Shown one piece after another: positions 13,811-48,700 of a DNA stretch of 64,000 bases. The notes beneath the pieces were generated by a model. It had not been told where the DNA came from and ran no database searches. It was given only the letters and a program-made list of their open reading frames with translations. Origin of the DNA: Pelecanus crispus. Taxonomy: Eukaryota; Chordata; Aves; Pelecaniformes; Pelecanidae. The translations under genes were made by a program, and so were the position numbers. The stretch is from assembly GCF_030463565.1 (NCBI RefSeq), contig NC_134656.1, positions 563,001 through 627,000 of the forward strand. Reading direction: 5' to 3'. How positions within the stretch are numbered: the first letter of the stretch is position 1; the number at the start of each line of letters is the position of its first letter.

Positions 13811-14275
13811 CCGTGTTGGTGTGGGGGTCCCGGATCATGGCTGTGCCGGTGTTGGGGTCCCGGATCACGGCTGTGCCGGTGCGGGGGTCCCGGATCATGG
13901 CTGTGCTGGTGCGGGGGTCCCGGATCACAGCTGTGCCGGTGTTGGGGTCCCGGATCACGGCTGTGCCGGTGCGGGGGTCCCGGATCATGGCTGTGCTGGT
14001 GCGGGGGTCCCGGATCACAGCTGTGCCGGTGTTGGGGTCCCGGATCATGGCTGTGCTGGTGCGGGGGTCCCGGATCACAGCTGTGCCGGTGTTGGGGTCC
14101 CAGATCGCAGCTGTGCCGGTGTTGGGGTTCCGGATCACAGCTGTGCCGGTGTTGGGGTCCCGGATCACGGCTGTGCTGGTGCGGGGGTCCCGGATCACGG
14201 CTGTGCCTGTGTTGGGGTCCCGGATCACGGCTGTGCCGGTGTTGGGGTCCCGGATCACGGCTGTGCTGGCTGGGG
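13811..14275. repeat. 30-bp minisatellite
   Basis: Fifteen or more units of 30 bp (CTGTGCCGGTGTTGGGGTCC plus CGGATCACGG) with two main variants, GTGTTGG and GTGCGGG, partly alternating. Length is strictly conserved across units, so frames remain open on both strands without coding meaning. Confidence 0.92.
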
Positions 14276-20790: not shown

Positions 20791-23700
20791 AAAGCCTGCG
20801 CTTTCCTGGCTTGCGTTCGCGTTCTTTTCTTTTCCTACCTCTCTTATGACAAAACTAATTTCGTTTGATTTTTACTAAAGTTTTTGAAAAAAGTTTTACT
20901 TCTTATAAAAGTTCCCTTTTCTCTCGTGAGCATTTCTTTGCTCTCACCACATGGTCGCTGCTTATTTGTTGTTTGGAGGTCAGTTTATCAGCAGGTGCGG
21001 TGCGTATTTATCGTCGCGAGGGTGGGTGTAGCGTGTTCCCCTGCGGACCGGGGAACGAGCGCGCTGATTTGCAATTTGGTTTTGACGCTTTGCTGCGATT
21101 TGTGTGCGCGATAGTGTTGGCTTGTGCTTTAATTCTTAGACAAACTTCAGTAGTGGCCTTTCCCTGCTGAATCAGTGGGTAAGAAAAGCACTCTAAGACA
21201 TCATCTACTTTGTAAGTAATTGAGTAGGGGAGTTACGTGACTTCTTAATTACTACATTTTAATCTGGAATACAGGATTCCTTCTGGAACTCCTTTCCGGT
21301 ACACGTTATTCTCTGGGGCACCACGTGTTCAGAGGTGAAAAGAGCACCCTATGGCTCAGGACTTGTTTGTATTTTTAGAATGTGTTATTTTGGGATGTGC
21401 AGGGAAAGAGGGAAAGTGTCCTTTGGGTTTGAGAAAGTTCTCCTCGTCTTTTCTCGGTGGTATCAAAACGCTCTGGAGCACGGCTGTAAGAGTGCTCTTT
21501 CTGTGAGAATGCCACTGGACTCCTCCTTGATTCAGCTCCGGGATGTTTTCTTCTGGATTGCTCTGTCTGTCTCCAACATCCGTCCCGCTTCATCCGTCTG
21601 TGCGGTGCTGACAGCGTAGTCCTGCTGTGCTGAGAGCCGCTCTACTTTTGTGTTTCTCTACCTGCTGTTTTTTCTAGCGATTTTTCAATCTCAAATTAGA
21701 ATGAACGTTTCTGGTGTTCCCTTTGGTCTTCTCCGCCTCAGTTATGGTTAACGATGCTGCCCTTGACTCGTTCTGTGATGCAGTTTATGCCTGGGGCGCG
21801 GGAAGGTGAACCTCTGTTGAATTTCTGTTTGTTGTAGTTTTTTAACCAGGCTCTAGTAGTTTTTTAACCAGGCTCTAGTTTAGGTTTTTGGTTGTTGTCT
21901 TTTCTCTTCCTCTGAAAATGTGAAGTCTGCAGGCTTCCCTTCTGCTCTGGAGGAAAGTGCGCATCTGCTTTGCTTTGATCGCTTTGACTTCTGCTTTCCA
22001 TTGGATGAGCTTTCTATACTGCGATGAGGCTAGAGGTAAAGAAACACTGCTTAGCTGCTGGGTGTTACAACTTTAATTTCTTTTCTCGCTGCTGAAATTA
22101 TTCTTAGCTGTGGGACAAAACATTCTGCAGTTTTCAACCAGCTACTGAAATTGTTCCTGAAGGTGTTGTCCCGGCTCTGAGCTCTTCTGGTCACCACTGG
22201 AATACCGATGGCTCCTGCGTCAGTAGATGAGATGACGCCTCAGAGCAAGCGTTTGGTTTCAGTGTCAGTGAACTCAGACCTCCAGAACTGGGTAAAATGG
22301 TGAATACAGGTGAAAGGGGTGGAGGAGCAGAAGGATAAATAGCTCTCATTCTGAGAAAATGAGATTCCCTTCTGTGAGGGCGCTTCTGGCTGAAAGATAG
22401 AAACAAAAGCTGGAAACAACAGGTTTCGCTGCTTCCCATCCTGCGCGGGTCAGGCGGCTATCGCAGAGACGGGCGAAGCAGGTGCCCTCCTGTATCGTTT
22501 TTTAGAAATGTACGTTCTTGTCCACTGAATGTGTAAAAATCAGAACAATCAGAGTTCCATTGTGCCTGTGCCACAGGGAGGATGCTGCCTTGTGCGCGGC
22601 AGATGAACAAAGGGAGCGTTGCTCCAGGCTGCCTGCTGTACCCAGCCGACGGGCTGCTGCTTCTGGGAGGAGGATGGCTCGGTGCCTCGCAGAACAGCTC
22701 CTGACGGGCTCCAGTTTTCCCTCGGGTGTTGTAAGGCTAACCCAAGCGCAGTTTCCTTTTTTGTCGGGCTGAGGAGCAGGCTGGCTCAAGGCCTCCTCAT
22801 TCATCCTTGGTGCAGGGGTGGCACCGGCTGTCAGACGGGTGGGCTGGATGATGGGTGGCATGCACCTCCGCGGTCTGATTTTAATCTCTTGCTGCAAACG
22901 AGTCAGTCTTCTCAGCTTCCCTCAGCACAACCCAAAATAATTGCTTTTCTCTTACATTGTTTTGAATTTGTCTCCTCTAAATGCCTAATCTGTGCCCTGG
23001 CTTAATCAAGATGATGTTTTTTTCCCTCGGTGCCAAGCTTGGCATGGAAGATTTCAGGCGCCATGCCACCAATTCAGCACCAAGTGTCTGTCAGAGTGGG
23101 AAAAAGAACCTCTTGCAACAAAAAATACAATTAAACAGCACCTGGCAGTTTGTACAAAGCTGAGGAATCCATAAACTTTATGTGTTACTGCAAAACAGTT
23201 GCAGATGGTCTAAGCTGATGATTAAATATTGCTGCTGTTCTGCCCAGAAAGACTGCGCCCAGATCCTCCGTGTCTGGTCTCCAATTATGGAGGGTAATTA
23301 AGGGGACAAAGCCAGCGCCGGTTCTTTTCAGAGATCTCTTCCAATTGTCTTGGGAAGCAATAAGGGAGATTATTTTAATTCTCATTAAATGCAGATTTCA
23401 CCACTCTGAGTGATCATTACAAACTGCTAATTTTTTTTAATGGAGTATTAGTAAAATGAAATAACAAAAGAAGCAGTAAATAATGGAATAAGGTCTGACT
23501 TCACCAAGCTGGGCAGTCTCCTCGTAGTTTGACTGGGTCGAGTGCAGTTTGTAGTGGATGGCTCTCCCTGTGTCAGTGGAGGTGCATAATAATTTCTGCT
23601 GCTGGTATAGGTAATTTACTGTAAATTTGCAATGTAATGGATGCATCTGACGGCAGAGGCAGCTCAGCCGCGCAGGCTGATGGCTACTGACAGCATTATT

Positions 23701-26700
23701 ACCCCGGTAGCTCTTGTCCTGCCTGCGGGTTAAAACGAGGAGCTGTCACCGGCTCAGCCGCTGGCCCGCGGCGCTCGGCTCCTGGCGAGTACGGGCCCAC
23801 GCTACAGACCTTGGGTGGGCATGCGGACGGGGTTGCAAGCGACTCTTTAGTCTGCTTTTCGATGTGTTATCTTTGGCCACCAAACCGGAGTGTGTGTAAG
23901 AGCCTGTCAAGGCAGATCCCTGCCCCGCGCGCGTCCCCGCGGGGGTCCCGATGGCCGTGCTCCTCGGGGCAGTTTGGAGCCTTGTGAGCAAGTCTGGAGA
24001 GGACAGGGCTTCATCCTCTCTGAAAATAATGGTCTGTATCCATGTAGATGCAGCGCGCATCTTTCATTTCGTTTGTCTCGGTTTGTGTGATTTTGGAGCT
24101 CTTGGGACTTCCTCTTTCTGGATTTTCCTGGTGGCAGTTCTTCCAGTTTTTATCGCTCAGGTCCTGCACTGTCTGGAAGTGTCGTGCTTCAGGAAGAAAA
24201 ACAACAAAAAGTAAGATTGATAGTAGCCTGGTTTATCACAAATGTTGGAAACAAAATTAAGAAGTTAGTGAAGATACCTCTGGAGATTTGGGGCTTGCTT
24301 TCAGAAGTCCTAAATTGGCAGCTAATGCGCAGCTTTCTGCATTGGCTCTTCCGAGCAGGCTGCAGCCGGCTGAGATGTGGTCACAGAAGCAGCTGCGTCA
24401 CTTATGAAGATTTATTTCCGATTTCATTAACAAATAATTTCTGAGCTTCACAGTAACAAGGTTACTTACAAAGCAGATGTCTTAGTAATACGAAACTCCA
24501 TTACTGAGACTTCTCCAAACCTTCCTCATGTGTGAAGGCTGGAAGCAATCGGGGGCCTGAAATGTGTTTTCCGGTTTGTGGGATACTTAATCCTGGTGTT
24601 GCTGTGCAGTCACCGCTTTGCGGGAGAGCAGGCAGGGGCCCGGGGCGCATCACTGTTCTGCGATTTAGGATGTAAGGTCTCTCGCCGTGCGCGAGGTGGG
24701 TGCTGTTCCCGCTGCCCAGACCGACGGACGGGCTCTGCTGCGTGTCCCTGCGCCGCCGCCGACCCGCGTCGCCCGAAGGCGCCGGCGCAGGCCCTAACAG
24801 CTTGGGGGCCCTCAGCGTCCAGAGCAAACACAGCTGAAGGCTAGAAGCACAGAAAGATAATTCTTCCCTTACCAATCACCAGCTTTTGTTTACTTTACTG
24901 TGTTTTATAAATGTCAGCTTTTTTTTAAACCCTTTTGTGTTCATTGTTTTTTGTGTGGTGATATCAGTGTTAGATTTAAATGAAAATGTCTTTGGAATAA
25001 ATTACTGTGAATGCACTGCATTCAACAGGAACAAAATTAAGCTTAACTAACAAAACAATTTAAAAATGCTTTTCTTGTGCATTTTTCTAATGAATTCCAT
25101 TTTCTTGCTAAATGCACCTTAGCACAACTGAGTGAAAAACCCCACGTTTTATTTGTGGAATGATTAACTTTCCCTTTTCTACCAGAAAGCAAAACTTGTG
25201 TAGATGTGAGAAGCTATGAAATTATTTAAATAAATGTGTTTAGACACAATATATGTTTGCTTAGCAAAATGCACCAGTCTCAGTGCAACAGTGTACGTGC
25301 TTAACTCTTGCTGGTTGGTAACAGTCCTTTAGAAAACGCAAATGCAAACTAAAGATGAAAATCAATGAACAGAAGCTAATGCTTGCCTTAAATCAGTTGT
25401 TCATGACTCTGCATCTCTTGTGAAATGAGCAGAAACCCAGGTGTTTCACTTATGCCTTGATTTCTTAGTTTTAATAGTGCTGGTTGGAAAACTGCAATAT
25501 TCTTAGTAAGGTTTTGCATAACATCAATAATGAGAGGAAAAAGCTTAATGCCCGCTTAATAGCATTTGCCCGGGAATTCAATTACTGTCTATTGCCAATA
25601 TGTTGGCAGCATTAATAATTGCACGCTGGGCACTTCATAATTTATCATAATGATTTCTGTTATGTATTATAGAAGATTCCTCCCCCCCAACAATGCATAA
25701 ATACAAAAAAGGATGAAATAATTGAGCTTGAAACAGGGTGTAAATTCTGATACTAAGGATTGTGTACTCAGAGGAAATGGGGTTGGCTTCATGATGGGGT
25801 TTTAATTTAGATTTTGTTCTGGCGATACAGTCCCTTCCCATGGTACATTACGTTGCATCTGACAAACCACCAGCTCCCTTGGTCCCTCGTTACAGCTGCA
25901 GCCTCATTGAGGTTTTGTTCCTTTTTTAATGTTTAGAAATGAGTGAGGAATGAGCTTCTGACTCCTTAAGTTAGGAACGTCCAAGGCAGATCTTGTAGGG
26001 CTTTTTGCTGTAAATTTCAGGACTTCTTAGGTCACCAATTTCTATATGTGTGTTTGTAACATTAATCCGTCAAAGGTGGTTTAGGATGCATTGGGTATTT
26101 GAGGAGCGCGTGGAAGGACATAGGAAGGACAGAGACCTGTGTGCCATTCAGGGCACTGAGTAAGGGATATGTATTTACTGAAGCTTGTTCCTTAGATGAT
26201 GTCATTTAGAAGAGCACCTTTTTTGCTTTTTCTTTTCTTTATTGGGTTGCTGATTGCTTGGGGAGAGTTTGAATTACTGCTTGTTGACAATGACAGATTT
26301 GTTTCCGAATGGTTCTATGTGAAATTATATTTTAATGTACCTAGAAGATAAGTAATAGGAATCTGCTTTAAAAAAAACCCCCAACCTAACACCCCCGCCC
26401 CCCCCCCCAAACCAACCCACAAAACCCTCCAAGCAAATACATTTCTCATTTCAAAGAATCTCCAGGTATGCTTCTGCTTCTCAGCTATTGAATTATGAGC
26501 TAACTGCTTTAAAAGTGCATGGGAGCACTTTAGAAGAGTTTTAAGTCAGGAATGTACCATCCATAATGGAAACAGCAGAGATGTAGGCAGAAAAGAGATA
26601 GATAACTGAGTTTGAATAGGTCTAGCTGGGAGCAAGCATCTAGAGCTTTGATTTGTGCTAATATGTTGTCTGGGAAACTTGATTCTGCATCTGCCTCAAA

Positions 26701-29700
26701 GCAGTGACAACGTGGTAACCCTGAAAACACAGCGTGATCATGGTCAGTCTGCTGTCCAGTTTGCCTCTCATTATAATTAACACTTCAAGTGCTTTTCAGG
26801 GTGTGCGTGTCTTTTTTTTGGTTTCGTTGTTTGGTTTGGGTGGGTTGTTTTTTTTTTAACATCTCTCCTGAAAGCAGTTTTCTTGAGAGCAGAGTTTGCA
26901 TTTGATAGTTTTTCCTTTATATTGAAATAAAACACGTAAATGCTCTCTGGGTTGTGCAGAGAAGCAGTCGTAGCTGGTCTGCAGCATGCACATCGTAATT
27001 GAATCACAGCGGGGCTGCCTTATGAGCCTGAAAGATTTATTGCCCTCAGGGGACCAAAAGTTCCCAACCTGCTGGGGAGCTGGAAATTCCCACCTTGATG
27101 CTCACACTCGTGCTGGACCTGGCAGGAGAATGACACTGTCACCTATTCCCTCTGCATCTTTCCTTCTTTCTTTGAATCAAAACTGAGGAGAATCCAAATC
27201 TCAGTTAAAAAGCAGGTCTTATGTTCACGAAAGCATGATGTGACTTTTATGATTCTAGACAAAGGGTCCCACGAAGCAGAAGAGTGGGGTCTTCCTGCCA
27301 TAATGTTTTATGAAATAGGCTGGACAAATGCTAGACCCAATGGGGTTACGAAATCATCTACCAGGCAACTTGAGCAGCTGATAGAAAGTAAAAATATTTT
27401 TCTTACTGTTTTCATTGTTCTTAGCCCATGGGCTCCTTTTAAATAGTAAAGAATTAAGCTTTGTTTTCCTGTAGCGATAGAGCACGGAGTACTCCTGTTC
27501 CAGCTTGGTTGTCCTTCAAAAACATATGAGAGACCAAATTTAATATCCTTGTAGTTTTTGAAAGGAGAGAGTTTTTCCTTCTGTTGCAAATGCTTTCATG
27601 CCTTTTTGCCTAAATTAAAATGTGGAATTAGGGTTAATGGACTTTTTCTTGTCCCTGGCAAGCTACCTTTAATTTTGACAATTAAATAGAAAATGTGGAC
27701 TAAAATAGTAAGTTGTTCCAAGCAAACTGTAAGGGTATGGGCACTGCTTAATCTGGTGCCAAGCGTCTGCAGAATTGCAGCAAGCAACAATGCTGCTCTC
27801 CTGCATGCTCGGAATTAGGCGTTGATTCTGCATTTCAGGTGTCAGCAAACTAGACAGAAGGATGGGGGAAGTCAATATGAATTAGGATGCACATAAGGAT
27901 TCAATAGAATCTCATCTACTGGGTGGGTAAAAATTATCTTTCACTGCTATCTGCTTGAGCACATTGGTCTTCTGCCTGTAAAACGTGGGGTTCTCTCAGC
28001 TGACTTAGCTGATTCCAGATCCTCAAGATGGTCAGCTGTACAGCCACCGAGCAGTTCGGTTTGGCCACTTTTGTCTTTGAAATACTGATCTTTGCCGCCT
28101 ATGAAGATATTTTCCCGTGAATTGTGTTCATAGATCAAACAAGGTAGGATGTTGACATAGCTCTTGGCAGAGCTGTTCATCTCCTCATGTGATGTTCCAC
28201 TTCACTAAATTAATTTCCTTTCCAGTTTTTGGAGTTAAGCGTTGTGTACGCAAATGTTTTAAACAACCTGTAAGAATTTCCTCAGTATATCTTGTAATAT
28301 TGGTGTTCTGGTTTGCAAGGGTCATAAAAGACTTGTATTCATTCACCTTATTTCTCTGACTTTAGCCCAACAGAGGGACAAAAAGACCCCGTGATGAGGA
28401 GGAAGAAGAAATCAAAGCACGTCGAAAGCAAGCTAGTGCGCGAGAGCACAGTCGTCACAGGGAAGAGGAGTCTGTTGCGCTGGAAGAAACTGATGATGAT
28501 AAGAAGAAACTTCTTCAGATAATTGAGAGGGATGGAGAAGAGGAAGAGGAGGAAGTAAATCACTAGTGTCCTGTGGGAAAGGGGAGGCAGCGGGAAATAA
28601 GCAAACACTAAATCACTTCTCTGTGATTTCCATTTCTTACCATGTAGATGATGAGACTCACTGGTGGTTTGCACATGCCGCATACTGCTTAAGGTTACGG
28701 TTTTACTTTCCTGCCCTGCAGGGTATTCATTAATTTCAAACGGGCTTCTCAAAGATATCCTCTGAAGGTTTAAAGAGGCGGGGGGGGGGTGGGTGGGTGG
28801 GGGTGTGTGTGTGTGTGCAAAAGGGAGAAGGAAGGGAAAGCTTTCAAGCCTAGTCTCTGTTTTAGGCTGAGAATACCCAAATCACCTTCTAAAATACATT
28901 TTTAGGAATTAGTTTCTGTATTCTAACCAGTTTCCCAACTCTATTATTCTCATCAGTACCCCCCAGCCACGCAGCTTCTCCCACTCCCCCCCTCTTTGTA
29001 GCTGTGCAGCAGCAGCAGCAGCAAATAAGCAAACATTCTATACAAAAAAGGTCTCGGGTCAGAGGAGGGGGGGTAGCAGCTGTCAAGGGTAAATGATTTC
29101 AAGCCTTGGAGACAGAAATCCAATGCAGCATTGGCCTTTCTGCCAAGGGCCAGGGAAAAGATCACTTTATAAATGTGACACATGGATTGGTATAAATCTA
29201 GAAGATATTTGCTTCCTGCTGCCTGTGTCCTGTTTGATAAAAAAAAAAAAAGTGATATTCACCACTACAGAATCATGTAGGTTCGTAAAATATCATTGTC
29301 CTTTGTATACAGCATTGATAGCATTTGTCTCTGAAAAATCTCCCTTGTTTTTTTGATGTTGAGCTATTGCCGTTACAGTTGTTGCTGATAGCGGAGAAAG
29401 ATAATGCAGGATTTCTGTAGCATTTGAGCTCCGATGAGGATGAATGGACGTAGCCAAAAGTCCTCTTGACTGGCTAGAGTCTTGTGGATTCCTGCAGCAT
29501 ACAAGTCCCTCGTCTTTGTCAAGTGGAATTCTCCCATCCAGACATTTTAAGGGCTGGAAGTCCAAGGTTTCTTTAGAACCAAAATCTCTTGTTTATTATC
29601 TTGGAATGCAGTTAATGTAAGTGCCATCAAAATGTGCCTTGTACCAGTAAATCTGATAGAAGGAAGGTAATCTGTAGGACACCGTAATACTGAATGCAAA

Positions 29701-32700
29701 TTAAATACAAGATACAAAGCTGATCCAAATGGAGATACTGTAATGATACGTGTTAGAGAAAGCAAAGAATCAAGTAAAATAGAGGGAAGCAAAATAGAGG
29801 GAAGCAGTGTCAGCATGTGTGACAGTATCTTTGTGGATTGCCATCCCATTGCAGGAGGAATACAGTTTGGGCGCTGTAGTATTGATTACCTGAGAGGGAT
29901 GGTGACTTGAGTGGGGTGGTGTTAAGGCAGGTTGGGCTTGAGAATGTAGGAAATCCAATAATAACGGAAGACTGGGACTGGTGGTGGTATTGTAATGGAG
30001 TTTGCTCAAGAAATAGAAAATTTCTCTCTTGTCAAGATTCTTTGGTTAGCACTCCTAAGCAGCAATCTCCAACACCAGAAGCAACTCTTGATTTAATCGT
30101 GAACAGGAGACGGGACACAAAACTTGGCTTAAGACGTGAAAGGGTCTGGCTTGTTTTTTGTTTTGGGAACTTCTCTTTAATAGTGATTGTAACATAGCTA
30201 AATAGAGGAGAGGGAAGTGTTTACACAAGAAAATCTATATCATCAACGTTTTAATGAAAGAAGTGCATTGAAATCGTGAAACAAGGAAAATAACAGAATC
30301 GTGTTTGTAGGTGTCAGGGAGGTAGCTGTACAGTGAATGTGTAATGCCAACGGAGAAACACCTTAGAAGAATTTAAAAATTAAAAAGAAAGTACTAGAGT
30401 AAAATATTGATTTTTTTTTTTTTCTTTAGAAAAAGACTTTAAAATAGAAGTGAAAGCTTATTGAAGTGAGGAAAACACAAAAACCCATAAACTCAGGGCA
30501 GTTAAACATAGACCTACAAGAAGAAATAGCATAATGGATTTCTGAAAAGAAACTATCCATGGGCGTAAACTGCTAATGCAGATTTACTCTAATATGTCAG
30601 AAGCAAAAAGCCTCAACAGGTGCTGATGGTGCCAGGTAGTAATGGGTGTGAAAGAACAGCCCAAGGAAGATGAGCCGTTGCAGAACGCCCCCCGCCCCTT
30701 GCTGCTGGGTTTCCGAAAGCGCAGGGAAGCTCTTCCGGTCCTTTCCGAAAGAACCTTCCATTGGTAAACCCCTGGCTTATAAAAACCTGACTTTTGCAAG
30801 GTTTAGCTCTGGGGAGCTTGCTCAGGGTGGAGTTGGAGTAAATCGATGAGCAAATAGCAATGGTGCGCGAGTCTTCTGGCGGCTCTCTGCAGCGAGACTT
30901 CCAGGGAATGCCGTTTGTTCCCGACTGCAGTCTCGCCGCATCGCTGTACTCGCTTTTTTGTGTTTTGCTGGGCAATTGTTCCAACCGTCTCAAGCTCTCG
31001 TGTCTGCCCTTTCTGGTTTGGTTAGGAGGAGCCTTTGGATGAAAGTTCAGTGAAGAAGATGATTCTCACCTTTGAGAAGAGATCGTACAAAAACCAGGAG
31101 CTGCGGATCAAGTTCCCTGACAATCCAGAGAAGTAAGATTATGCTCGGCCCCTATTACCCTTTTCTCCTTTGATTTTAGGTTTCAGCCCTAAATCAATTT
31201 CTCGACTATACAGATGTTTGCAGTTACATAAGGCTTATGTAACAGCAGTTATTGCCATGTAGTTCTACTACTAACTTTGTTAATTAAAAATGGCATTATC
31301 GAGCCTCTGGTGGTGGCCGGTGTATGGCTGGCAGCACGAAGAGAATAATTAGCAACGAAGGGAAAAGTTCTGGTTTATTAAATTCTTGCCTTTTGTTAAT
31401 ATTACAGACTGTGAAACTCCAGTACTAAAACTCGAGTTTATGTTATTTTTATTTTGGGAGCGCACAAATTCAGTAAGGTTTCGTTAGTTTTGGTTTAGTG
31501 GCTAAGTGGCTCTGCTCTCCGCCGTGAGCACTAAGGAGCTCTCCCACTGTCAGTCCTCTTGGCCGCTGGCATCGGGGGCTCATCAGCCACGCTGCGCTCT
31601 CCCGTTTTCAGGGGGCTCTTCCCTCGCACTGTTCCCGAGCAGGGGTCTCTTCCTCGCTGATAGGCAGGTGGTAGGTGTTTGGGGGGGTGGGCTGAAAGAT
31701 TGAGATCCTCAACTGAGGATTGCCGCGTTTTGCTTTCCAGATAATTAAAGATTTCATGCCGTCATTTTGTGTGAAGGTGTTGTGCTTGGATATGCAGTCA
31801 GTGGTCTGTGTGGGAAGAAAATAATTTCATATTATGGAGCTTTCAGATGCTGTTGTGAGCAAAACGGCTGGATGGGGTCTGAAAGCCAGGCTTTGTGTGT
31901 GTTTCTTTCCACACCTGTGGTTCTAGCGAGCCTCTTCCTCCTTTCATGGAGTTTTGTTATTCGCGTTAAATGAATTTCTTCCTACACTTGAGTGCCGCTA
32001 TTTATTTTTGTCTAGTTTGCTGTTCTTTCCCTTGCCCAAATTCTTTTCATGGACTTTACTTCAGACTAATACAACCCACATACTAATATGTGGTAGCTAG
32101 GGAAGGTGCATCACTCTGGAGAATTTATTTTATATGCAGGGCTTTTTTCAGGTGTAGCTACAACTTCTTAATTTTTTTTTTTTTAAAGTTCTAGAACTGA
32201 TTTACAGAGTTGGAACAAATCTGCTTATTTACTCTGTGTAACTTATATAGCAGGAAGGCTTATCCTACTGCGTGGTTAAACTCCAAGGGGCAGGCATAGG
32301 AGGGGCTGAGGCACAGACTGCCTCTAGGAGTTCTGGACTCGGTGACGTTGATGTGACCGCAGGGGGTGAGGAACGCCGGGGCCACGTGCAGCTGGGGTGG
32401 CAAGTCGTACCTGGTATCGCCGGGAAAGTGGTCTCCGTTTTGAAACGGGCTGTGCATTGAACACAACTGATGTACTTTTTGCCCTTTTATTAACTGTTTT
32501 TGTCTTGCCTCAGGTTCATGGAGTCCGAACTGGATTTAAATGACATCATTCAGGAAATGCATGTGATCGCGACGATGCCAGACCTGTATCACCTGCTGGT
32601 GGAGCTGAACGCTGTGCAGTCTCTCCTCGGGCTGCTGGGACACGACAACACAGATATCCTTCAGTTGTTGAAGCAGCTCTGATGTGAGAGGCTTTCTGTG

Positions 32701-35700
32701 GACTTTTCTGTAATCTCTTATATCCTGCTTTCACAGCCTCCTGTATATGTTTGTCTCTTCTTTCCCACTGCACAGAATTTGTCTTTCTTTTTTTTCAAGT
32801 GAAAGCCTTCTTTGTTCAAGTAATATTGATTCTGAATTTTTTCAGTGCTGTTATTCTCCTTTCTTGTTTTATGACCCTTTCATCTAGGTTTGAGCGGCTG
32901 AGTTAGAGTGTGAGCAGATGAACAATACGGGAAAAGCGAAGGTATGGGCTTAGCAGCGTACAGCCGTGAACTGTGTGCAAACTTTGTCTGGAATAGTCCC
33001 CAGTAAAAATGAAATCGATTTACCCCTTTTTGTTGAGAGCTGAGCTGTCATGCTTTCAGCTATTTGCTGTGGACCAGCTCACCACAGTGCTACACCTTAG
33101 TTTGTAAATGTGATAAATTCTTCATGTGTCCGTACCTTTAATTTGGTGTGCTCAGAGCTTGAGGTTGTGGGTAGCCCCTCTGGTTCCATAAATATCCAGA
33201 GACACTTCCATGCTCAGTTAGTTCCTGTGTCACTGAACCTGATCCCTGTGTGCGCCTGTCTCTTCTTCCTCTGAAGATCTGAGGACATCTCAGAGTTTTC
33301 TGTCTATACTGCTGAAGATTTTGGTAGTTTTGAACAAAAAGAGTGTCATTTTTTTTCAATATTCTGGTTCCTTGATGCTTAGCAGTCAGCTGATAAATAG
33401 AACTGTGCCTGGCTTACCATTGTGCAGCAGTCTTTCTTTAAAAGTAGAGCTCGGCCTGCATTGCTTGTAAAACATTCTGCAGTAGATTAAGCTGCAAAAT
33501 TGTAAAATGATTTGAGAGATCATGTGTTTGTGTCCTGACAAACATTAGTGAACGGAGGGAGCAGTGAAGTCCAGTGGAAAGGCCACTGGACTTAGACTTG
33601 GGACTACAGCAGGCTTTTCTTTTTTCCTTTTTATTGATTCATAACCTTAGGAAAGTAATTTATTCTTTACCTCTTTATGTGTAAAGAAGTAGATAATACT
33701 TACCACCTTTTCTGAGGTGTTTTGAAATACGCAATGTTAAAAGGCCTGTTAGTGCTAAATGTTGTGGTCTGATGCACAGATCTTGGTTTTCTTTTTTAGC
33801 ACTTTTCCTTATAGTACTGTGTATTAAGAATTCATAATTCATTCTAAGTGGGTGCAGTGATCAGAAGATAAAAACAAAACGTAAATATTTTATTGCATAG
33901 CAGTTTATATTACCCAAACACATAAACAGTGCTTTCTATTTTGACTTGTATCTAGCTGAACCTTGATGTGGTGAATGCTGGTCCCTGCAAAACAGTAAAC
34001 ACCACAGCTTTCCGTATCTGTGATCTGTAATGGAAATTACTCTCAAGTAAATGTTTGTTAACAATTTACTGTTGTACGGTGGGAAACGCCTACCGTGCAT
34101 AACCAGCTTCATGGCTACCATAGTTTCATTACTTATTTTTTTGCCAGACACCGCAGGCTTTTTGTGTACTGTGTGCGTGGCATTAAAAGCTTATACTGAA
34201 TTCCTCATTCACAGGGAAAATATAAACTATGGGGATTTTGACTGGGATAGCAGAGCTGATTCACAGCTGGAGTGCACAGGAATACAGCTTGCTTTGTCCT
34301 TTCAGCCATGAAAAGCTGTGTCCTAGGGTCACTGCTGCTGTCAAAGACTTGTCAGTATTTCCACTGTGAACTCTTTTTAATTGGTTTGCAACTTGTCTGT
34401 CAGTTAGTTTACGGGTAGAAATTTGGCCTGTGAATTGCAGTTTTGGAAAAAGTATATTTCTTGTTATAAAACTGCTGAAGTGTTTTCAGATCTGTTGGAA
34501 GCAGGACACAGGCTGTACTAACGCCTCTTCACTGTGCTGCTGCTGCTTATGTACAGGATAGAAACACTGTTAAAGTGAAGCATCTAGACATAAAACTAAA
34601 TTGATACAGCTCAAGTTTTCTAATGACTTTTTTGTTAAAACAAATGGAAAAAGATTTTAAAAATGAGTTCTTCAAGGAGAGGACTAAACAAATGTCTCTT
34701 CAGATGTGATTTAAATGTAGCGTATTGAGGGACTAATGCGAGGAGACAAAAGCAATGTCCAGGGGGAGCAAATAATCTGCTGAATGATTCATGCAGTTTT
34801 ACACAAAACATGTGAATGAAAGATGATCACTGACAAGATTTTATTAAGGAAAGACAGGAAAGCTTCAAGTGAGGTTTTTCTTAGCCTGTCTCCTAAATTT
34901 GATAGGACAACTGATACTCTCACTGGAAGCCTCAACAGAAGCTCCCTAGACAGGAATGCCCTGCAAGATGAACTCCTCTGACTGCTGAAGTTCTTTGTGC
35001 TCTCAGAAAAATCTGGCTCAGTTCTCTTTATAGCACCCAGTAGGTAGCAGCAGTCTTCAGTTAGTTCCTCCCTTAGCCTTCTCTTCTATGGGTTGATCAA
35101 ACCCCATTCCCTCGCTCTTTCCTCATACACCATGGACTAGCCCCCTGCCCATCTCAGTGGTTCTCCGCTCTCCTGAGTCCAATACGTCAAGGTCTCTCTT
35201 TTATTGGGAGAGCCCGCAACTGGACAAAATATTCTACATGGTTCCTTGTGAGTGGCAAGCAGCAGGTAAGAGTTCCTTCTCTTGACCTGCTGGGTTTGCT
35301 CTTGCTAATGCAGTGCAGTCTGTCATTAACCTTCGTCACTGCAGTGGCATGCTGCTGACTTGCCTTCAACTTGTCCACCACAACTTCCAGATGCTCTTCA
35401 GCAGAGCTGACCTCTCCAGTCAGCCCCAGCGGATGGGCTTGTTCCCTCCCAGGTACAGGACTTTGCATCTGTTGAGCTTCACGAGGTTCCTGTTGGCCCA
35501 TTCCTCCAGCTTTTGGTAATTAATAGTTGATTCCTTGCAGAATAAATGTAAGGCAGGTTATTTTCTCTTAACTTGCTTATTGAGTCGTGCTCCAACTTCC
35601 TTTTAAAAATTGTGCTCTGGCACCTCTGACCATGTTTTTGTATAAGCATGAGTGACTGTCTGCCCAGGGGGGAGTAATCACCCTTCTGTTTGGTTCCTGA

Positions 35701-38700
35701 TGGCAGTTGCAACTGGAAGTGACATCTACCCATCAAGAAAATGTACAGCTAGCTTTGGCTTGGTTAAGGAGTGCTGTAGAGTATACAGAAAGTCGAAGTC
35801 TTACTGATACGCATCTTCTGCGGCACCTAGACGTAGGTTAACTTGGGACTAGGACAGGCAGCTCTCTTACAGTCTTTCCTGAGACTGGGTAAGTCGCAAC
35901 TGAAACCTTGCTAAGAAAAGATGTATGAAAATACTTTTTCTGCTGCTGCTTGTGCATCTGAGCAAATGCACAGATAGGAGAACTGGGAGGCTGGATTGTT
36001 AGCTTGTGCATTTTAAAGAGATTTGTCACAAAGTTGTTATATAGGACATGCAGAAAACTGCGTATCCTGTTCTACCCCAGTGGGACTTGGGCAAGATTGA
36101 TCAGCGTGTCTGAGAGAATAGGAAAGTGGGTCTAATGAGGTGGAATACGTCTCGTCGTACAAGAGAGCTCTGTAGCAGTCAGGGGAACAGTGTGTGATGC
36201 AGCCCAGAGTTAATGAGTGAAAATTGGGCTGGCAGAAGCTATGCTGTTCCTGCGAGGTCCGTGGTTAGAGGAGCATGCTGTCCTAATTGGGCCAGGCAGA
36301 AGGGGCTGATCGCTCCTGCTTCCTGCAGTGGCCTTGTTAGGTGCGTGCCGTATCAGGTTAGCAGGGGTATCGCTGAGAGCAGAATACGCAAATCAGATTA
36401 TTGTAACTCATTTCTCTTTGCTTGTATTCGATCTTGACAACGCAAGATGGTGCCTAGTTATACCAACTCTAGCAATTTTGATTTGAAAAAATAAAAAAAA
36501 GTATCATCAAGAAACAGTAAAATTGCCTGATACGGTAAGCACACATTCACATTTGTTTTTATCATTCCTAATTGTTAGGATTTCCTGATTATGGTGCTTG
36601 AGGGCTGTCTGCTGAAGTAGTCTCTGTGCTCTTGGCTCTGCTGTTCCTGTGCCCCACTGCTGTAATGTATTACCACTTGGTTTGGGTCGTGTCATGAGCA
36701 CGCTGGCCTAAGAGTAATCTGCTTTTGATATTAAATGTGTCTGCCTCCGTGTTGGTTGTCCTTAACACATAGCACATGTTTCCATAGCTGTGGTAGACTT
36801 GCTTCAAGAACTGACTGATATAGATACTCTCCATGAGAGTGAAGAAGGAGCTGAAGTCCTCATAGATGCTCTAGTAAGTAGTAAACTCCAGATTATTTTA
36901 ATGCCTGAATGTCTGCCCTGTACCGCCCAGCAGCGGTTATCCATATTGCCAGCACCACGAGGAAGTTAGCCAGGTCAGGAGCCTGCTCTCTTGTAGCTGA
37001 AATGCTGTGTTGAGGACCACAGTGGGTGTTTTTTAATGAAATGCCAGAGTTTGGGGAGTAGGTTCTTCTTGCACCTTGTCTACCACTTCTTTTTTGGAAG
37101 GAACACGCTCACATGGCAAAAGTTGTGTAGGCTGGCAGATTGTTTTGTGCAGGGAGGGAGAATGAAGTAATATTTGTGACTTGCACAGTGTCCTATTGAA
37201 AATAGGAACTTGATTTGCATTTTTCTTCCTTCTTGCGGAAAAGGGTGACCTCTGTTCACCCATGAAAGACTGAAGTTTGTGGCAGGGCTCAGGTGGTTAT
37301 CTGAAGGACAGTGGGGCCATTGTGATCTTTCAGCCTAACCTCTTGCATGGGAGACCAGTAGTCTTCTACCCAGTAATCTTGTTTCAAACCCACAAATCTG
37401 TGCTTGAACTGGGACATCCGTTGTTATAGCGAGGGTACACGTTTTTCTTAACAAGAAGTAAAAGCGTGAATGTTTTCATGTAACAGAGCTAATGCATTTT
37501 AAGGGTGGAGGAGGGCTTAGAGGTAATGATCCTTTTTGGCGTAGAGATTAAACAACCCCAGAAAATTATCTACATGCAAAGAAGATGCATTGCTCAATCT
37601 TCAGTGCTCCCTGCCTGGTTAACTCTCCTGAGTGCCTCTTGGCCTCCATGGTGGTGGACTTCCCCTTTTCCTGGCATTTGTGCTGATGCCTCCCACTCCT
37701 TGGCTGCGGGAGAAGGATGCCAAACTGAGCAGAAGGCCTCCAGAGAACCGATGCCCAGCAAAACTTGAGATTTACACATCTGTCCTACCTTTGGGCAGCT
37801 TCTGCTAGTGAATTGCTGCGTTTGTGAATCACTGTGCTGTGTCTTGTTCTGTAACTATTATGTTGAAAGATGGGGAATTACAGGTTTTCTTTTGTTTGCT
37901 TTGTTTGGCTTCTCTGTTTTCTCCTACAATCCTTCTTGTCCAGTCACTATAATGTTACCTTCCAAAGGTTAATGACAGTGGCCCGGAGCCGAGTTCCTCC
38001 AGCTGGCCTCTGGGCTGTTCTTAATTACTCTGCCTTCGTGGAAAGATTGCTGGATGAATGAAGTGGTAGCGAGGAACTGCTAGAGAAGATGTTTTCTATA
38101 AAATGTGCAGAGAGGTAGTAAATCAAGTGAAGTTCTTTCTCCGTTTTCCTTGTCACCAGCCCATTGATAATAGCCAACTTTTAGAGGTTTTATTGTCCTC
38201 TTTGAAAGAAACAGGTCAGGCATGTCTTGGGAGAAATGTTTAGATATCTGCTTTTTAGATTACTTTTTTTTTTCCTAAAAAGAAGGTAGGTATAATGTAG
38301 GGTACCTGTGAAGATTGTTGCGCTACCTTCCACAGCAGCTGATACTTGTATTTTTTTTCCACGTGTTCACTGGGCCCAAAGCTAGTTAACAGTGTTTGAA
38401 TTGGAAATGTTGTCGTGTTTAACTTTTCCAAGCTCATGTCCGCAATGGAAGGTTAGCCAAAGTCAAGCTGGACTCTGTCCAACTGCGGCTTTAAAAGCAT
38501 ACTTCTTGTGTTAGCTTTTTGATTAGGAGGCTCCACCTGCAGATGTGGGTTCCTGCTCCTGGTGTTGATTTGTCTGGGTTTCGTTATCTTGCTGAAGTCC
38601 ACTTGGTACATTTGTCTTGCTAGGATTTAAATGCAAGGCTTCAGCTGGCGATAATTCAGCTTTTGGATTTGAATCTGCGTGTGCGAGCATTGTTCCTTCA

Positions 38701-41700
38701 GCTTTTTGTACCTATTAAGGTGGATGATATAACAAAAATTTAGGCAGACCAGCAGTAAAGAGTTGAAAGTGGAGCTGCTTGCAGAGCTGACAGCTAGCCC
38801 ATCCGTGGTGGTGTTTGGTGCCTCGCACTGAAGAATTCTGAGGGATTATAAATCAATCAGGCTGGTTCAGGAAATAAGACTGTGACAAGGTACATGTTTT
38901 CCTCCAGATGTTTTTCTGTTTAATCCGAAACACAAAAGTTGTTTAATTAATTAGGACAAACATAGTGGCAGATTTACTTGGTGAATCCTTCGCTTCCTCT
39001 GAGATTTTTAGAGCAAGATTATTAATGTCTTCTGATCGTGTCTGGCAGGATGTTTCCATAGAGCTTATTGATTTTTATTATTTATTAAGCCCCCGTTCTT
39101 TCTCCTTCATCTTCCTTTTTTTCAGTCGTCTTATCTTTTTGTCTTTCCCATGACCCCGGTGATGTAGGTGGAGGGCCAGGTCGTGGCCTTGTTGGTCCAG
39201 AATTTAGAGCGCCTGGATGAAAGCGTGAAGGAGGAAGCTGATGGTGTCCACAACACACTGGGTAAGTGGCTCTTGCGCAGCCCCTCGCTTCTCGCTGTAT
39301 TTGTACCAGGGGGCGGTGGGTTATCCCTCCCCTTCCTTTCCTCCCTGCCTCCTTTCCCCTTGAACTGCCAACACTAGGGCGGAGGACCTAGAGCAGCTTT
39401 TCTTCAAGCACAACTTTAACTCACAGTAATGCCTGGTCCTTTGCGCCAGCGTTTGTCGCCTGGCTGCTGGTGCGGCGCCTCTTCCCAAGGCAGTTACGCA
39501 GGGAGGTGCTGGTACACGGGGAAAGCGTGCACTGCACCCGAGGGTGTGCCCTGCTGCCTGTGTATTTACTGTGTACTCATCTGTGAGCTCCACTTACTCC
39601 GTTATGAGAGCTGTTTATGTCTTAGCAATATATTTAACTTTCAGGTAGTAAAAAATTTGTATTTCATATAAGTACATCATTACCTCTCTGTTCCCCAGTC
39701 TTTGCACGGCACAGTAACTACTTTGCAGTGTGTCGCTGTTATTAGCATTTAGACCATCAGCCACTCCTTTCAGTCATTTGGGATTGTAATCTCCCGCGGA
39801 CTGGAAGAATGAGAGAGACTGGAAAAAAGCGTTTTGGAATTTTTACTGCTGCTGCTGTTAGTTTAGTTTTGTGCTGTGAGAATTGCTGCAGAAGTAAAAG
39901 GAAGTACCTTAGGCTTCTTCCAGCAGGAGCTAGTGTCACACTGAGGATGGAGTGCAGGCAATGTAAAAACAGAGGGAGTATCGCAGACCTGAGCTTAAGT
40001 ATCACTCAAAAAAAGAAAAAAGAAAAGCTAGTTTTGCAAGTAAGATGTAACTTTGAGAAGAGCAGTGCAGCCCTAGGAAGGACCTAGCAAAACAGTGTTG
40101 ATACAGGCCTGAGCTGAACTGCAGGTGGGGAAAAATGACTTTTCTGTGCCTTTCTTCTCAGCAATCGTTGAGAACATGGCAGAGTTCCGACCAGAGATGT
40201 GCACAGAAGCTGCGCAGCAGGGCCTCATGCAGTGGTTGCTCAAGAGGCTGAAGGTGAGCTTGTTTTCCTGTTGTCATTTGGGAGATATCACAATAAAGAT
40301 GGACAGGCCACTGATCTGGAAGCTGCTGTGCTTGAGACGGTATTTGGCACAATATTAAAGGCCCAAGGCTATTACTGGCTCTTCCCATTTGCATAGGTAT
40401 CTTTGTCATAAGTTCTAACATTTGTGAACACAGCGAATTCAAAACTTGCCTCAAACTGGGAAGTATGTCCCTTTTAACTTGTTATAAACTAGCAAAATTG
40501 AAGGAGTTGGCTTTATGTGTAAGAAGCTCTACACAATGTGACGCGAGTGTGAGTAGAAGTACTCTTATTTTCATAGTGCTTGCCTGGAAGAGTATCTGCA
40601 ATGTTGAGTCTTCTAGAGTGTCTTTGGGTTTTAGTTGTTTCCATGGGCGTTCTTTTTGGTAACATGTCCCTGATCCTGCCGTGAGAACTGTGGTCTTTCC
40701 TGCGGAGTTGGACCCTTCGCAGCGCTACAAAACAGTGCTCAGGCTCCAGCCGCTGATGGGGTCATCCCCAGTAGCTGCGATACCGCTGCGCTCCCGGCTC
40801 AAGCATCAGTAGTGCTAGAGCTCTGCCAGCACCCGCCTTCCTTCTATAGAACAGTTAGTACAGCCTGAAAACATCGCTTAAAATAAGCCAGTTCTGCATG
40901 CGCGCGCATGTGCGTTGGACAAGCCAAGTTAAGGACAAAAGGTTAGACTTCAGGGTTGTATCCTCTGCAGTTTTAGTTTAAATGGACATACTTCTGTCTT
41001 GCCTTTCTATTGTAAATGTCTTACGCTAGAAGGTGTCTTTTTTCTGTTTGTACGATTCCTGTATGGTGGATTTCTGGTCCATTGCTGAGACCTGTAGGAA
41101 TATAAAAGCTCACCAGTGAGCGGGGAAACTAATAAAAGACCATTTTATGCCTTTGCTTCCTATGTTTCTAACACTTTTTTGAGTTTCAAGTGGTGTCTTT
41201 GTTTAACTGCTGCCGGTGGTGGCTTTTTCTTTGAAGTAATCTAATTGCCTTTTGAATTCAAAATTACTTTTTGATACTCTTAGTATCCTGTGGCAGTGAG
41301 TTACACAGTTTAACTCTGTCTTGTGTGAAAAGATGCCTAAACATTCCCTGGAAAATACTGTAGGAAAGGGATGGATAGTTCAGCTCTCTTACAGAGCTAG
41401 TGAAGCAAATTTGGCAAACAGATTCTGGCTTTTTCCTAACCCTGTTGGTAAGGCATTAGCACTTCCATACTTAAATGTCTTTATGCTTAGAAGGCTTCTG
41501 AATCACAGAAATACTCTATCAGCTTTGTAAGTGTGCAGATACCCCTCTGTGCATCTCATACACTTGTTAGCAGAAGTAACCTATAATTTCTCTCTACAGG
41601 TAGAAACATAATTACATTCCTTTTGCTTAAAAACAAAAAGTGAAGTTAATTTTATTCCAGGCAGGTATGTACTGCTGCCTGCCTTGTAATTACTCTGGCA

Positions 41701-42684
41701 GCTGAAAGACTTAGAAACTTGGGAAAGCAAAATAATCACAACTTGGATTCCCCTGCTTGGTGCCACAGAAAATGGATGTTCAAGGCATTCAAAACGGGGC
41801 ACTGAATGTGTCTTTCCTTTGCCCTGGCATGTGTAAGCTTTGGGTTTGGGGACGTGTCATCAGGCAGTGCTTTTTCTTGTTTACACGCTGTCGTTGCGGG
41901 GAGCCGCCTGCTCATGAAACCCTCGCCCAGGCGCTGTCGCTGGTGGCAGTGCTTGGTCTTGAATCTCTCGCCCTGACAGATGTGCTCAGGATTGCACCAG
42001 GATCTCGGCATCGGCGTAGAGCGTTGTGCTGCTGAAGAATGTCTATGGGATGAGTTTTAAAATCAGGGTTGTCTAGGAGTTGATAAGGACATCTGGCACA
42101 CAGCACAGTGTGTGAATTTCTGTTTCCTGACTACATTTCAGGTTGCATAATTGTATTCTGACTGTCAGAACTGCCTCGGAAAGCTCAGATGGAGAGCTTA
42201 ATAGCTCACTTCTCCAAACATGAGCAGGGTTTGATGCTGTTGTGTGCAGCCTTGAGAGAACAGACGATTGTTCTCCAGCGCTTGCAGGAGTTGGTGCGCA
42301 CCGTGATAGGAGCCGGCAGAGCTGTACAGCGCCGAGCGCCTGCCGCCTTCCCTTCTCCTGCCACCGATCGCTTGGAAGCGTACGTGGCTGCTACAAATAC
42401 CATCATCTGCAGAGTGGTTGGGGATTGCTTGGAACGAAAAGCTTTATTTAAAGTCAATACTTCGTGGCATTTGGGATCTTCCTGCTTTTCATGTTTTTGT
42501 GTTGCATGGGGCCTGTGTATCGTGACCTTTTCTTTGGTAGCAGGCCGGGATAATTGGCCCACACATAGCCTTGCGCAGGCAGGTTCGCTCAGTCACGCTG
42601 CAGGTAGTCGCGCATTTGGGGAAAAAAATTGTGGGTGACTAATGGTATGTTTTAAGCCTAGTACTTATTGCTTGCTGGTGGTTT

Positions 42685-42716
<32 letters not shown>

Positions 42717-45700
42717 CCTTCTCGAACAGTGGAATACAAATAGCTGGTAACTGATGATTTTTAAAATTGTATAAATTCCTTCAGCAAACCAGTCTGCATT
42801 ATCATCTCATGGGTTAATGCTTAGTCTGTTTCTGTAGATGAAGCAGCTTTGGCAGCATGCAAAAACATTGGATCCAGTTCAGACTCCCACTTCAGGGATT
42901 TATTTTTTTTCTTCTGAGGGGGAAAAAAGAAATCAGCATTTTGGTTTCGTTATGACTTCTTTTTTTTTTTTTTTTTTTTTAACATATTTGAATATGGAGG
43001 GAATGTATGAAACGAAAGTTATGTGACTGTGCAGGCTAAACCGATCTCGCATCCATCTGATTGTGACCTTGTGATCCTCATACAAAACTCCGGCAGTTAC
43101 TCTTTAGTGTTACTGTGATGTGTTTTCTGACATTCTGTGTTTGGTGGCAGGTTTAGACTTTTGGAACAGGGATATGTCCATGCACTCATATAACATCATG
43201 GAAAACTTTATCACAGGAAAGAGATTCCATGTTGCAAACAACTGGAGGCTGTTCTTGGGGGTTTTGAGCCAACTTGGTCAAACCTGCTTACGTAGGACAG
43301 TGTGAAGGATAGGAGCTGAGTTTGTACACGTGCATGCATGAGCACACACACACACAGACGTACACGCACCCTGCCCACACCCCGTCACCCCTGCATCAGA
43401 GAGAATTATTACTGTTTTGTCACCGAGGCATACTGCAAAATTACCGCTGTTGTATTTTGGTTTAAGTGTTGTTGATGATACGTTCGGTGATTTGATTAAT
43501 GTGTTCTTCAAATCAATGAAACATGGAGAGCCGTGCCCTGATGAGCCTCTTGTTCCTTCTTCACCAACAGGCTAAGATGCCTTTTGATGCCAACAAGCTG
43601 TACTGCAGTGAGGTGCTGGCTATTTTGCTCCAGAATAACGATGGTGAGACGTGCCCCTGGTATTGATATTCTGTTAGGGTAGGATCTAGGCTTCCTTCAG
43701 ATCACAACAGCACTCTTCTGCCGTCGGCTTCCCTTTGCTTGTGCTCTCTCTCCCACGCGTGTGCTCTCGCATACGCATGCGCCCTCTCTTTCTCTGCAGC
43801 TTTTGTACTCTGTCAAGCCGTATTGATTTTGTTTGCTGATGTATCAGTGTTAGATGGCTGTAAAATCTGACAGTTAGCTTCATTTTTTTCTCTCTCTTTT
43901 CCCCCCTTCCCCCCACCTCCGTCTAGACAACAGAGAATTGCTCGGGGAGCTGGATGGGATCGATGTGCTGCTTCAGCAGTTATCTGTGAGTAATTCACAT
44001 ACGCCCTCTCTGCTGTCAGGAGACTCGCAGGCTGGGTGTGAGGAGGTGGAACAGATTCTGGGTGTAGCGCTGTCCTAGCAATCTGTAGATACTGAAGCAC
44101 AGTAGTGCTTTATGTTTAGTGGTGGCATAGTCCCCGAATAACTTCCGCGTAAGTGTATCATCCACGGTAAGTGAGGTTAATCCCTGTTTTAAAGACATGA
44201 ACGTTGAGGTACACAGAAGTTAAATTATTTTGTTATAATTATATGGCAAGTTGGAGATGGGCAGGGTTGGAATTTGGCCATCTTCAGCATTCTCCACTCC
44301 AAGCGCTGGGCTGCATTGTGCCTGCATTTGAGCTAGCTGAAGGTAATGTGTTCGTAGTTCACCTGTATTTCTTGAGGTAGTACTGTCTGCAGCACCTTCA
44401 GGTATGCCTTGTGCCTAGGAGTTCTCTGGTAACACGCTTATCCACATACCTCTGTGAATTGCGCAGTGAGTGAATTTGCCTTTCCCTTTGGAGGCCCTGT
44501 GTTGTCTTTAAGTCACGCATTAGACTGCTGCACATTTGTTGGTGCACAGTCAGGCCGTAAAAAGGGCAGCAGAGTTACAAGAGAGAATATATCAGTGACA
44601 TGTATGATCGCGGGCTTAGGCATATCAAATGCTGAAGACTTGTGGTGTAAAACGTTCATGTGTACTCTGTAACAGTGTGGACCAAATTGGGCCCTCCATT
44701 TTGGGGTAATTTTTTCTTTCTTTGTCATGCAGGTGTTTAAACGACACAACCCTAGTACAGCAGAAGAACAGGAGATGATGGAGAACCTGTTTGACTCCCT
44801 TTGCTCCTGCCTAATGCTCAGTTCCAATCGCGATCGCTTCCTGAAAGGCGAGGGTCTACAGCTGATGAATCTGATGCTTAGGTACCCAGATAACTTTGTG
44901 ATTTTTCTTACCTGCTTTTGATGTACCAACAGACGTTCTGGCTAGATACTTGTGGTTTTCCGTTCATAAAATTCTTGGGTTAGCGTATTTGTCTGTCTGC
45001 TCTTTCTTTTTTCCAGTATGTAAGTTGGACCTTCTCAGACATACCAGCTCCACTCTTTGTCTTTAGCTTTGTTTCCTAAGAACTGGGGTTACTACAATAG
45101 CTGCTGCAAAGTAACAGTGTAGATCTGCGTGGCAGACACCCAGATGAAAGAATGCTGTAGGTCAGGCCGCCAATCCTTTCACGATTTAAAAGACCCCTGT
45201 GAGGGTAAGAGAGAACCTTTGGATATCTCTAGGGAAAATGTTTTTCCTTTCATTCCCCAGTTCAAGCTTCACTGTGTTGTGTATCCTCTGAGCTGGTGAA
45301 TTATTGTGGATACAAAAAATGCTCTTCTGAAATGGGCAGAAGTATCCGTTTCTTCTTGTGACATGTTTTGTCAGATTGTGAATCTCCAGGGCTTCTCTGC
45401 TCTCTCTTCGCTTTTACTTCCTAGCCTGCTACTGAATTGTGTCTTCTGTGCTGACTGGCTTCCTCCAGACCTCAGGACTGGGCGCAGTGGGGCTCTGGCT
45501 GGCGTTCCCTCGTGTGCTGGGCTGCGTGCGGTGGCTGGTTAGCAAACGCCAACAAGAAATGATGTATTCCTGCAGCGCATGGCTGGGTCATGTGCAGCAG
45601 CAGGGAACTGAATAAATAACCAAACGTGGATTATTCAAATAGGAACACTGGGTTTTCTTGAGGCTAATTAAAGAAAAGCTCCAAAACTAAGAACGGGAGG

Positions 45701-48700
45701 GAAGCCTCCCTCTGCCTTGAGTGCTAAGCTGCTAAGCTAGCCTTGCAGAACTAATTACTTGGAGTTCTTGTGCCATGTGGGTGGGACTCAGCGTTTGGAT
45801 TTTTTAATAGCTTTTCCCCATTTTTGGACTCTACTGTTTACCACTCTCTGTACCAGGATCCCAGCTGGGAAATTATGACAAGAGGAAAATTTCTCCCTGG
45901 ATGCATTATCCCCCCCCAGTAGCTGTGAAGGGGTTAGGAGGGACAAAGCATGACTTAACTGCCAGCAGCAGCTATGTCTAATGGAAGGAGTTTCCAAGAC
46001 CTCAATCTTTTGATGCTTAGGAACCTAACTTATTCCACAGTCTGAATGGAATTGGTAAAGTGACAATGGAAAAAAAGTAACAATTCATGGAATATTTTCT
46101 AGACGCTTACATCACTATATCCATCCATAAGCATGGACTATACTGACAGTTGATTTTTTTTTTTTTTTTTCCTAAACTCTTCTAGTATAGTTCAGATAAG
46201 TAGAAAAGTTGAAGTTGTTCTTACTTGGCTGTTTGAGCAAGCCATGTGAGTTGATAGTTGACTGAGTCTTATCCCCAAACCAGCTCCCTTCTGGCCCTGA
46301 CTTGTCCTACACTGCAACTCTCATTTAGAGAGAGCAGCACCTAGTTGGGAAGAGAGAGTAACCTTCTTGCTTCTAATGATGCCTTCAGACTAGAGCTGAA
46401 AGCGTTAAGCTGGTACTTTTATTGCTGATTCATGGTTTTCCTCTTTTGAAGAGCTACCAACCGCTTTTCTTAGTATTTCACACTATCCGTGTTGTTGACA
46501 TGTCAGTTCATTCCTATACACAATTTTCTTTTTTTTGCCTTAATACTCCTAAAGAATGAAATGTCAGGATTCTGACACAGGTAATCATGCATGTAACCAC
46601 AAACATGTGAAATCAGTGATACTGAGCACATGCTTAAAGCTACTTCCATACTTCAGACTGACTGGTTGGGTCAGAGCCGCAGTGCTGTCCTGCAGCTGTT
46701 ACTTTTGGTAGGTGTGGTATTTCCTTATCGGTGTTGTAAGCTTGCTTCTGGTAGGCATGACACCGACGTGACTGTGTGTGACTTAACTTGGATCTTCAGA
46801 ACTGCAGGAACGTGGTGCTAAGCTCTGCTAACTCTTGGCATCTCTTGAAAACCAACTTTCTGCGTTCTAAGTTTTGGTGCTTTGTCAGCAGTAAGAGAAT
46901 GAATGACATTAGAGTCGGGTGCTCTATGGAGAGCATAGGAGATGATTAAGGTAAAAGCACTGGTTTGTGGTGATGAAGATTAGGGGATGGATGCTGGGAG
47001 AAGGCGGCTGCATTAGGAGGAGAAGCTTTGGGGATGCTCAGCTGCTGCTGTGTGTCGGGGGGTACTTGCTTTTGCAGGTCATGGTGTGATTGAAGGTAGA
47101 AAGCTCTGCTGGACTTAGCACTTTGGTGAGGAAAATAGAGCATGTTTCTGTCGCTTTCAAACCACCAAACAAAGCAAAGTGTCTGAGAACTGATGCTGCA
47201 AGGTTTTCGTGTTTGTTTGCTTGTGGGTTTTTTACATATTTTAATATCCAGAAGATATTAAATGGCTATTAATTCTGTTAACCTCTGTTATCATTGGGAG
47301 TTCTGGTGTATGCTTAAAAGCTCTTAGAGGTGCTCAGTTTTTCGTGGACAGTATTGCTTTGGTAACTGCAGGCTAGCATTGTAAACGGGGAGTGAACCTT
47401 GGTAGTTGTGATCTAGAGAGCTGCACGGGAGTATTACACTTCTGTATCTTCTTGATACCTTCATGACAAACAACAAAGAATAGCAATGCCATTCAGTTGT
47501 GATTGACCACCTCGCCCACAAACAAGGCAGAATATTTGTCTCTCCTGTCGGTGTCCTCTGAAGACTGGGGGGAGAGATCTGTTATTTTTTGTTTTTACTT
47601 TGAAGGCGGTTAATCATTGTACCATAGTCTGTGCAGATGAAAGGACAAATAAGCAAAGTTGAAAGTTTATTGACATGATGCGAGATAGATAAGCTGTGTG
47701 AGAATAAAGATATCAGGCTTGAATCTCCATTACTGTCTTAGAGAACATAGCATTCTGTATCTAGTGCTACCCAATACATCTAGCCAAGTTCTGTTAATAA
47801 TGGTCATGCACACAGACCTGCGGAAAAGTATAGCATCTTTCAGCTGAGCATTTAACATGCTCGAGAGATTCCTGTAGACAGTAATGAAAACAGGATGACT
47901 TTCTATTATGCTGAGCCTTAAAATGTATGGCCAACAGCGAAAGATGATGTTGTATTGTGTGAAATTCTACTCATTTATGGGGAGACAGTGGTGACGCCTG
48001 AAAATGAGCACAATGTGGCTGGTGGGCTTTACGTGCATGTCCATAGCAAGCAGTGGTGTGGTCTTGGTCTTGCAGCGTTGAGGGGGACTTGCAGTTGGCC
48101 CCGGGGAGCAGAGCTTCACCAAGTGGGTATGTGGGAAGGGAGCAGAGGGGTCTGGGAGAAGGCGGGATTGAGAAGGATGGAGCCTGTGACAGCAGAAATG
48201 AAGTAGGAAGTTTTGAAGCGGGATGAGAGCACGGGCATATATAATTACTTGAGTTGCATCTCTGCAGCAATGGAGGCTCGTTTATTTTATGGAGTGTCTT
48301 TATCAAAAATAAGATGCTTTATCAAGGTGATAGCCACCAGTGGAAAGTTTATAAATGTCACGTAGAATTAAATTCATTTTTTTTTTTAGGTCAGGAAGCA
48401 CTTTTTAGTACACAGTCCCTCAGCCTTGCCTTGGTAACCTAAATGCAGTTTACCTTACAAAGCCAAAAGAGAGAAAAACAGGCTTGTAATGTCAGTTCCC
48501 TTGCGCACAGTGACAGGAAGCTTATTGCTTTTGCTGTAAAATTGTGTTAAGGTTTGGAGGAGATGCAGCCACTCGGTTCCCAGGGGACGTGTCAAGAAGA
48601 TTCTCTGTTGCATAGGAAAAATGACGCGTGGCTTTCCCGGTTACTAACCGAAGGCGCGTGTGTATGCACATAGACAAATGCAGCAAAGGGCGCTTACAGA

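Follow-up and report, generated by a model that had tools for sequence, protein, structure and literature searches.

U12-type introns of the AT-AC kind carry a 5' splice site of consensus RTATCCTT and a branch sequence of consensus TCCTTRAY; the U11 and U12 small nuclear RNAs recognise the two signals, and U4atac/U6atac.U5 then join. We describe here an intron with the features of this minor class, the fourth intron of CTNNBL1, in a stretch of 64,000 nucleotides from the genome of Pelecanus crispus (contig NC_134656.1, positions 563,001 to 627,000 of the forward strand). The whole 64-kb stretch is referred to below as the window, and positions are counted from its first base. Compared with AT-AC U12-type introns in general, intron 4 is alike in its ATATCCTT and TCCTTAAC signals, in its AC end, and in being the sole such intron amid GT-AG introns over the part of the gene that lies in the window. 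Its branch-to-end distance, 10 nucleotides, falls on the short side of the usual range, and no other difference was found.

The closest described systems concern the same gene. A minor-class intron of CTNNBL1 appears in the title of Jabbour et al. (2003, Genomics 81:292-303); gene and class are those considered here, the species presumably another. Janice et al. (2013, PMC3564746) list CTNNBL1 among 18 human twintrons, with a U12 variant of 563 amino acids and a U2 variant of 376; they state that the ancestral intron is of U12 type in all 18, and that vertebrates show high conservation of these twintrons. A review of 2021 (PMC8329584) counts CTNNBL1 among the genes with an outer U2 intron and an inner U12 intron. 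The human U12 variant is the full-length protein, with which the AT-AC reading in the window agrees over 464 residues, whereas the competing U2-type intron of the human gene has as its counterpart in the window only a candidate U2-type pair. Both the intron type of CTNNBL1 and the vertebrate conservation of the human twintrons as a set are already published in these sources, and the present locus has no novelty in either respect.

The fourth intron of CTNNBL1

The coding exons identified in the window (Table 1) join into a predicted protein whose residues 1-464 give a gap-free alignment with human beta-catenin-like protein 1 (PDB chain 7abi_S, 563 amino acids; E=2.7e-284). Identical residues number 436 out of 464, leaving 28 differences, and the CTNNBL domain of Pfam (PF08216) is matched over residues 58-463 with 555 bits; the identity that the initial annotation had given to this gene is borne out. 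The human residues beyond 464 should be encoded past the end of the window. Within exon 4, 46 residues match human CTNNBL1 in PDB with E=2.4e-24, and residues 128-189, which span the intron 4 junction at codon 156, show no difference from the human protein. This codon falls inside residues 125-179, a part of the HEAT-like region to which nuclear export activity has been assigned, with a putative signal at residues 130-140 (PMC3885797).

Table 1. Features of CTNNBL1 and of its intron 4 in the window
Feature	Position	Strand	Remarks
CTNNBL1 coding exons 1-13	20250..62624	+	joined exons give 464 residues, no stop
CTNNBL1 exon 4	32514..32653	+	terminal bases GACAACACAG, after base 1 of codon 156
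Predicted AT-AC U12-type intron 4	32654..36775	+	4122 nucleotides, phase 1
Predicted U12-type 5' splice site ATATCCTT	32654..32661	+	8/8 against consensus RTATCCTT; directly after exon 4
In-frame TGA on exon 4 read-through	32680..32682	+	starts at intron base 27; peptide NTDILQLLKQL, then stop
Predicted U12-type branch-point sequence TCCTTAAC	36759..36766	+	8/8 against consensus TCCTTRAY
Predicted 3' splice site AC	36774..36775	+	from the AT-AC excision reading
CTNNBL1 exon 5	36776..36873	+	encodes VSIAVVDLLQ...

The window holds 12 complete introns of CTNNBL1, 11 of them GT-AG and one AT-AC. At this last one, the join of 32653 to 36776 reads HDNTDVSIAVVDLLQ, as in human CTNNBL1, and yields the peptide HDNTDVSIAVV. 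It had been proposed that the DVSIAVV reading is obtained only when the intron is spliced AT-AC, and two trials uphold the proposal. When first intron bases 32601-33000 were combined with last intron bases 36400-36829, three of the 400 x 430 end pairs gave the CTNNBL1 reading, all of them the same intron shifted by 0-2 bases (AT-AC, TA-CA and AT-AT); only the AT-AC placement, with ATATCCTT first, is known to fit an intron class. A scan of GT-AG alternatives over donors 32514-32953 and exon starts 36476-36873 found nine in-frame pairs, none of which restored the protein, their products having 396-447 residues against 464.

The signals at the two ends of this intron are those initially annotated, and each agrees with its consensus at every position. 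The 3' end consists of TCCTTAAC-ACATAGCAC, the full terminal sequence being TCCTTAACACATAGCAC. The presumed branch A, the last A of TCCTTAAC, is at 36765, which leaves 10 nucleotides to the last intron base, 36775. The earlier placement of the branch motif 10 nucleotides before the AC is correct if counted from this A; it fails if the motif's last base is taken as the reference, since only 7 bases separate that base from the terminal AC.

The GT-AG introns of the same gene provide a control. Against 8/8 for both signals in intron 4, they match the U12 donor consensus at 2 to 5 of its 8 positions and the branch consensus at 5 or 6 of 8. With an approximate U2 donor matrix, the start of intron 4 scores -5.7 bits, compared with 2.1 to 12.4 bits in the 11 GT-AG introns. 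A first-order Markov model that allows three slides puts the joint chance of finding both signals at the protein-defined junction at about 1.4e-8, before allowing for the 12 introns. Because exact motifs sit at a junction defined by the protein, and because none of the nine GT-AG pairs in the scanned stretches restores the protein while the AT-AC ends do, we are nearly certain that intron 4 is a U12-type AT-AC intron of CTNNBL1.

Several points weigh against this assignment. Taken alone, the motifs occur at chance level: ATATCCTT is observed twice in 64 kb with 1.02 expected, and TCCTTRAC three times with 3.89 expected. The support is drawn from genomic sequence. Correspondence in position with the intron of the 2003 and 2013 papers is deduced from the gene name and the full-length U12 product. 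Since each 8-mer is expected about 1 to 4 times per window, the evidence rests on the protein-defined junction.

Broader scans of the window give a similar picture of the motifs. The branch motif with its spacing to AC is found once with 0.05 expected, a count that is reached by 5 of 100 shuffles; RTATCCTT with one mismatch allowed has 66 matches with 65.08 expected, and such a scan is useless for discovery. On the + strand there are two exact ATATCCTT donors, at 27543 (in intron 1) and at 32654, and a single exact U12 3' end, that of intron 4. Pairing of the donor at 27543 with this 3' end is possible in form; the pair was rejected, as exons 2-4 would be lost. No exact U12 donor occurs on the - strand of the window, the remaining 11 complete CTNNBL1 introns include no second one of U12 type, and no structured RNA of Rfam matches the window at the gathering score.

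Two further observations concern the interior of the intron. An AG at 36771-36772, in frame and 3 bases before the AC end, makes a candidate AT-AG alternative; by manual translation, its use would replace D156 with A-H (NTAHVSIAVV instead of NTDVSIAVV). The intron also contains what we take, from reading it, to be CR1-like sequence; together with the compactness of the introns, this hints at a bird genome.

Splicing of intron 4 and competing readings

As far as genomic sequence can tell, intron 4 would be removed by the minor spliceosome in Pelecanus crispus. Joint recognition of ATATCCTT and TCCTTAAC by U11 and U12 would be followed by the entry of U4atac/U6atac.U5, and cuts at AT and AC would produce the HDNTDVSIAVV junction. 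The early stop previously predicted on read-through of exon 4 is present (Table 1), so that with the intron retained the protein would stop near residue 164, and the retaining message would be either degraded or translated into this short product. From these sequence features it is sound to infer that correct CTNNBL1 expression depends on minor splicing, as the initial annotation had it, with the qualification that a U2-spliced variant of 376 amino acids is also reported in human (PMC3564746). Intron 4 offers a clean case of a minor-class intron misjoined by gene finders that accept GT-AG only, and thus a useful annotation check.

The human variant points to the alternative that survives best, namely a twintron in which, in this species too, a U2-type pair near the AT-AC intron would give rise to a shortened CTNNBL1. 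The human reports describe the 376-residue U2 variant (PMC3564746) and an outer U2 intron (PMC8329584), and arithmetic on the window model is compatible with that size: exons 1-5 comprise 564 coding nucleotides, exon 6 thus begins at residue 189, and the stretch 189-563 with one Met added comes to 376 residues. Within exon 5 there are acceptor-like AGs at 36788 and 36797, for which the pyrimidine fraction is 0.62; the lowest value among the 11 GT-AG introns is 0.56, and the in-frame pair 32563/36838 would yield a shorter protein without a stop. The donor side is less favourable, as only two GT sites of exon 4 exceed 2 bits, and their scores, 3.4 and 2.8, lie near the bottom of the 2.1-12.4 range of the 11 GT introns; the stronger GT sites, with 6.4 bits at 32684 and 8.5 bits at 32942, are inside intron 4, past the TGA. 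On balance we consider such a twintron possible in this species, though rather unlikely.

A regulatory role of the U12-type AT-AC intron was also suggested initially, in the form of a cross-talk between minor splicing and the major machinery through the Prp19/CDC5L complex. The link of CTNNBL1 to this complex is indeed in print; the cross-talk itself is a conjecture, which here has the presence of the intron in its favour. In one form of it, minor-spliceosome activity would set the level of CTNNBL1, and hence that of the Prp19 complex and of major splicing. CTNNBL1 carries a U12 intron, and according to PMC4538830 it is required to maintain the protein levels of the core Prp19 complex, and mice cannot do without it from mid gestation onward; it has also been located in an early activated human spliceosome (PMC13332222). 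It is on the other hand reported to be dispensable for cells, though mouse embryos need it, and the portions covered of the literature joining CTNNBL1 and the minor spliceosome contain no feedback test. We hold such a link to be improbable. Still more speculative, and in our view very improbable, is the idea that minor-spliceosome efficiency at intron 4 would regulate CTNNBL1 like a valve, and thereby both the abundance of the Prp19 complex and the timing with which major splicing proceeds, and that U2/U12 competition would have been kept across vertebrates for that purpose.

U2-type AT-AC introns exist, and an AG stands three bases upstream of the AC end, yet it is highly unlikely that a GT-AG intron, or an AT-AC intron of U2 type, was misread by eye: both U12 motifs match in full, the branch A is 10 nucleotides from the end, and none of the nine in-frame GT-AG pairs in the stretches scanned restores the protein.

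Surroundings of CTNNBL1 in the window

The start of CTNNBL1 coincides with a fall in guanine-plus-cytosine content: the first 20 kb have values of 0.61-0.72, and over the following 8 kb (20001-28000) the content drops to 0.42. Its introns appear compact on reading. Upstream, an open stretch at 3954-4919 on the + strand has matches to the WAP four-disulfide-core domain (73.5 bits, two stretches) and to a Kunitz domain (72.4 bits), and is probably a protease-inhibitor gene. The GC-rich first 20 kb also contain all the minisatellite arrays detected (14 overlapping rows with a score of at least 120), which extend over 2293-2956, 9475-10031, 10589-10938, 13001-13213 and 13813-14269, with periods of 9 to 162 bases.
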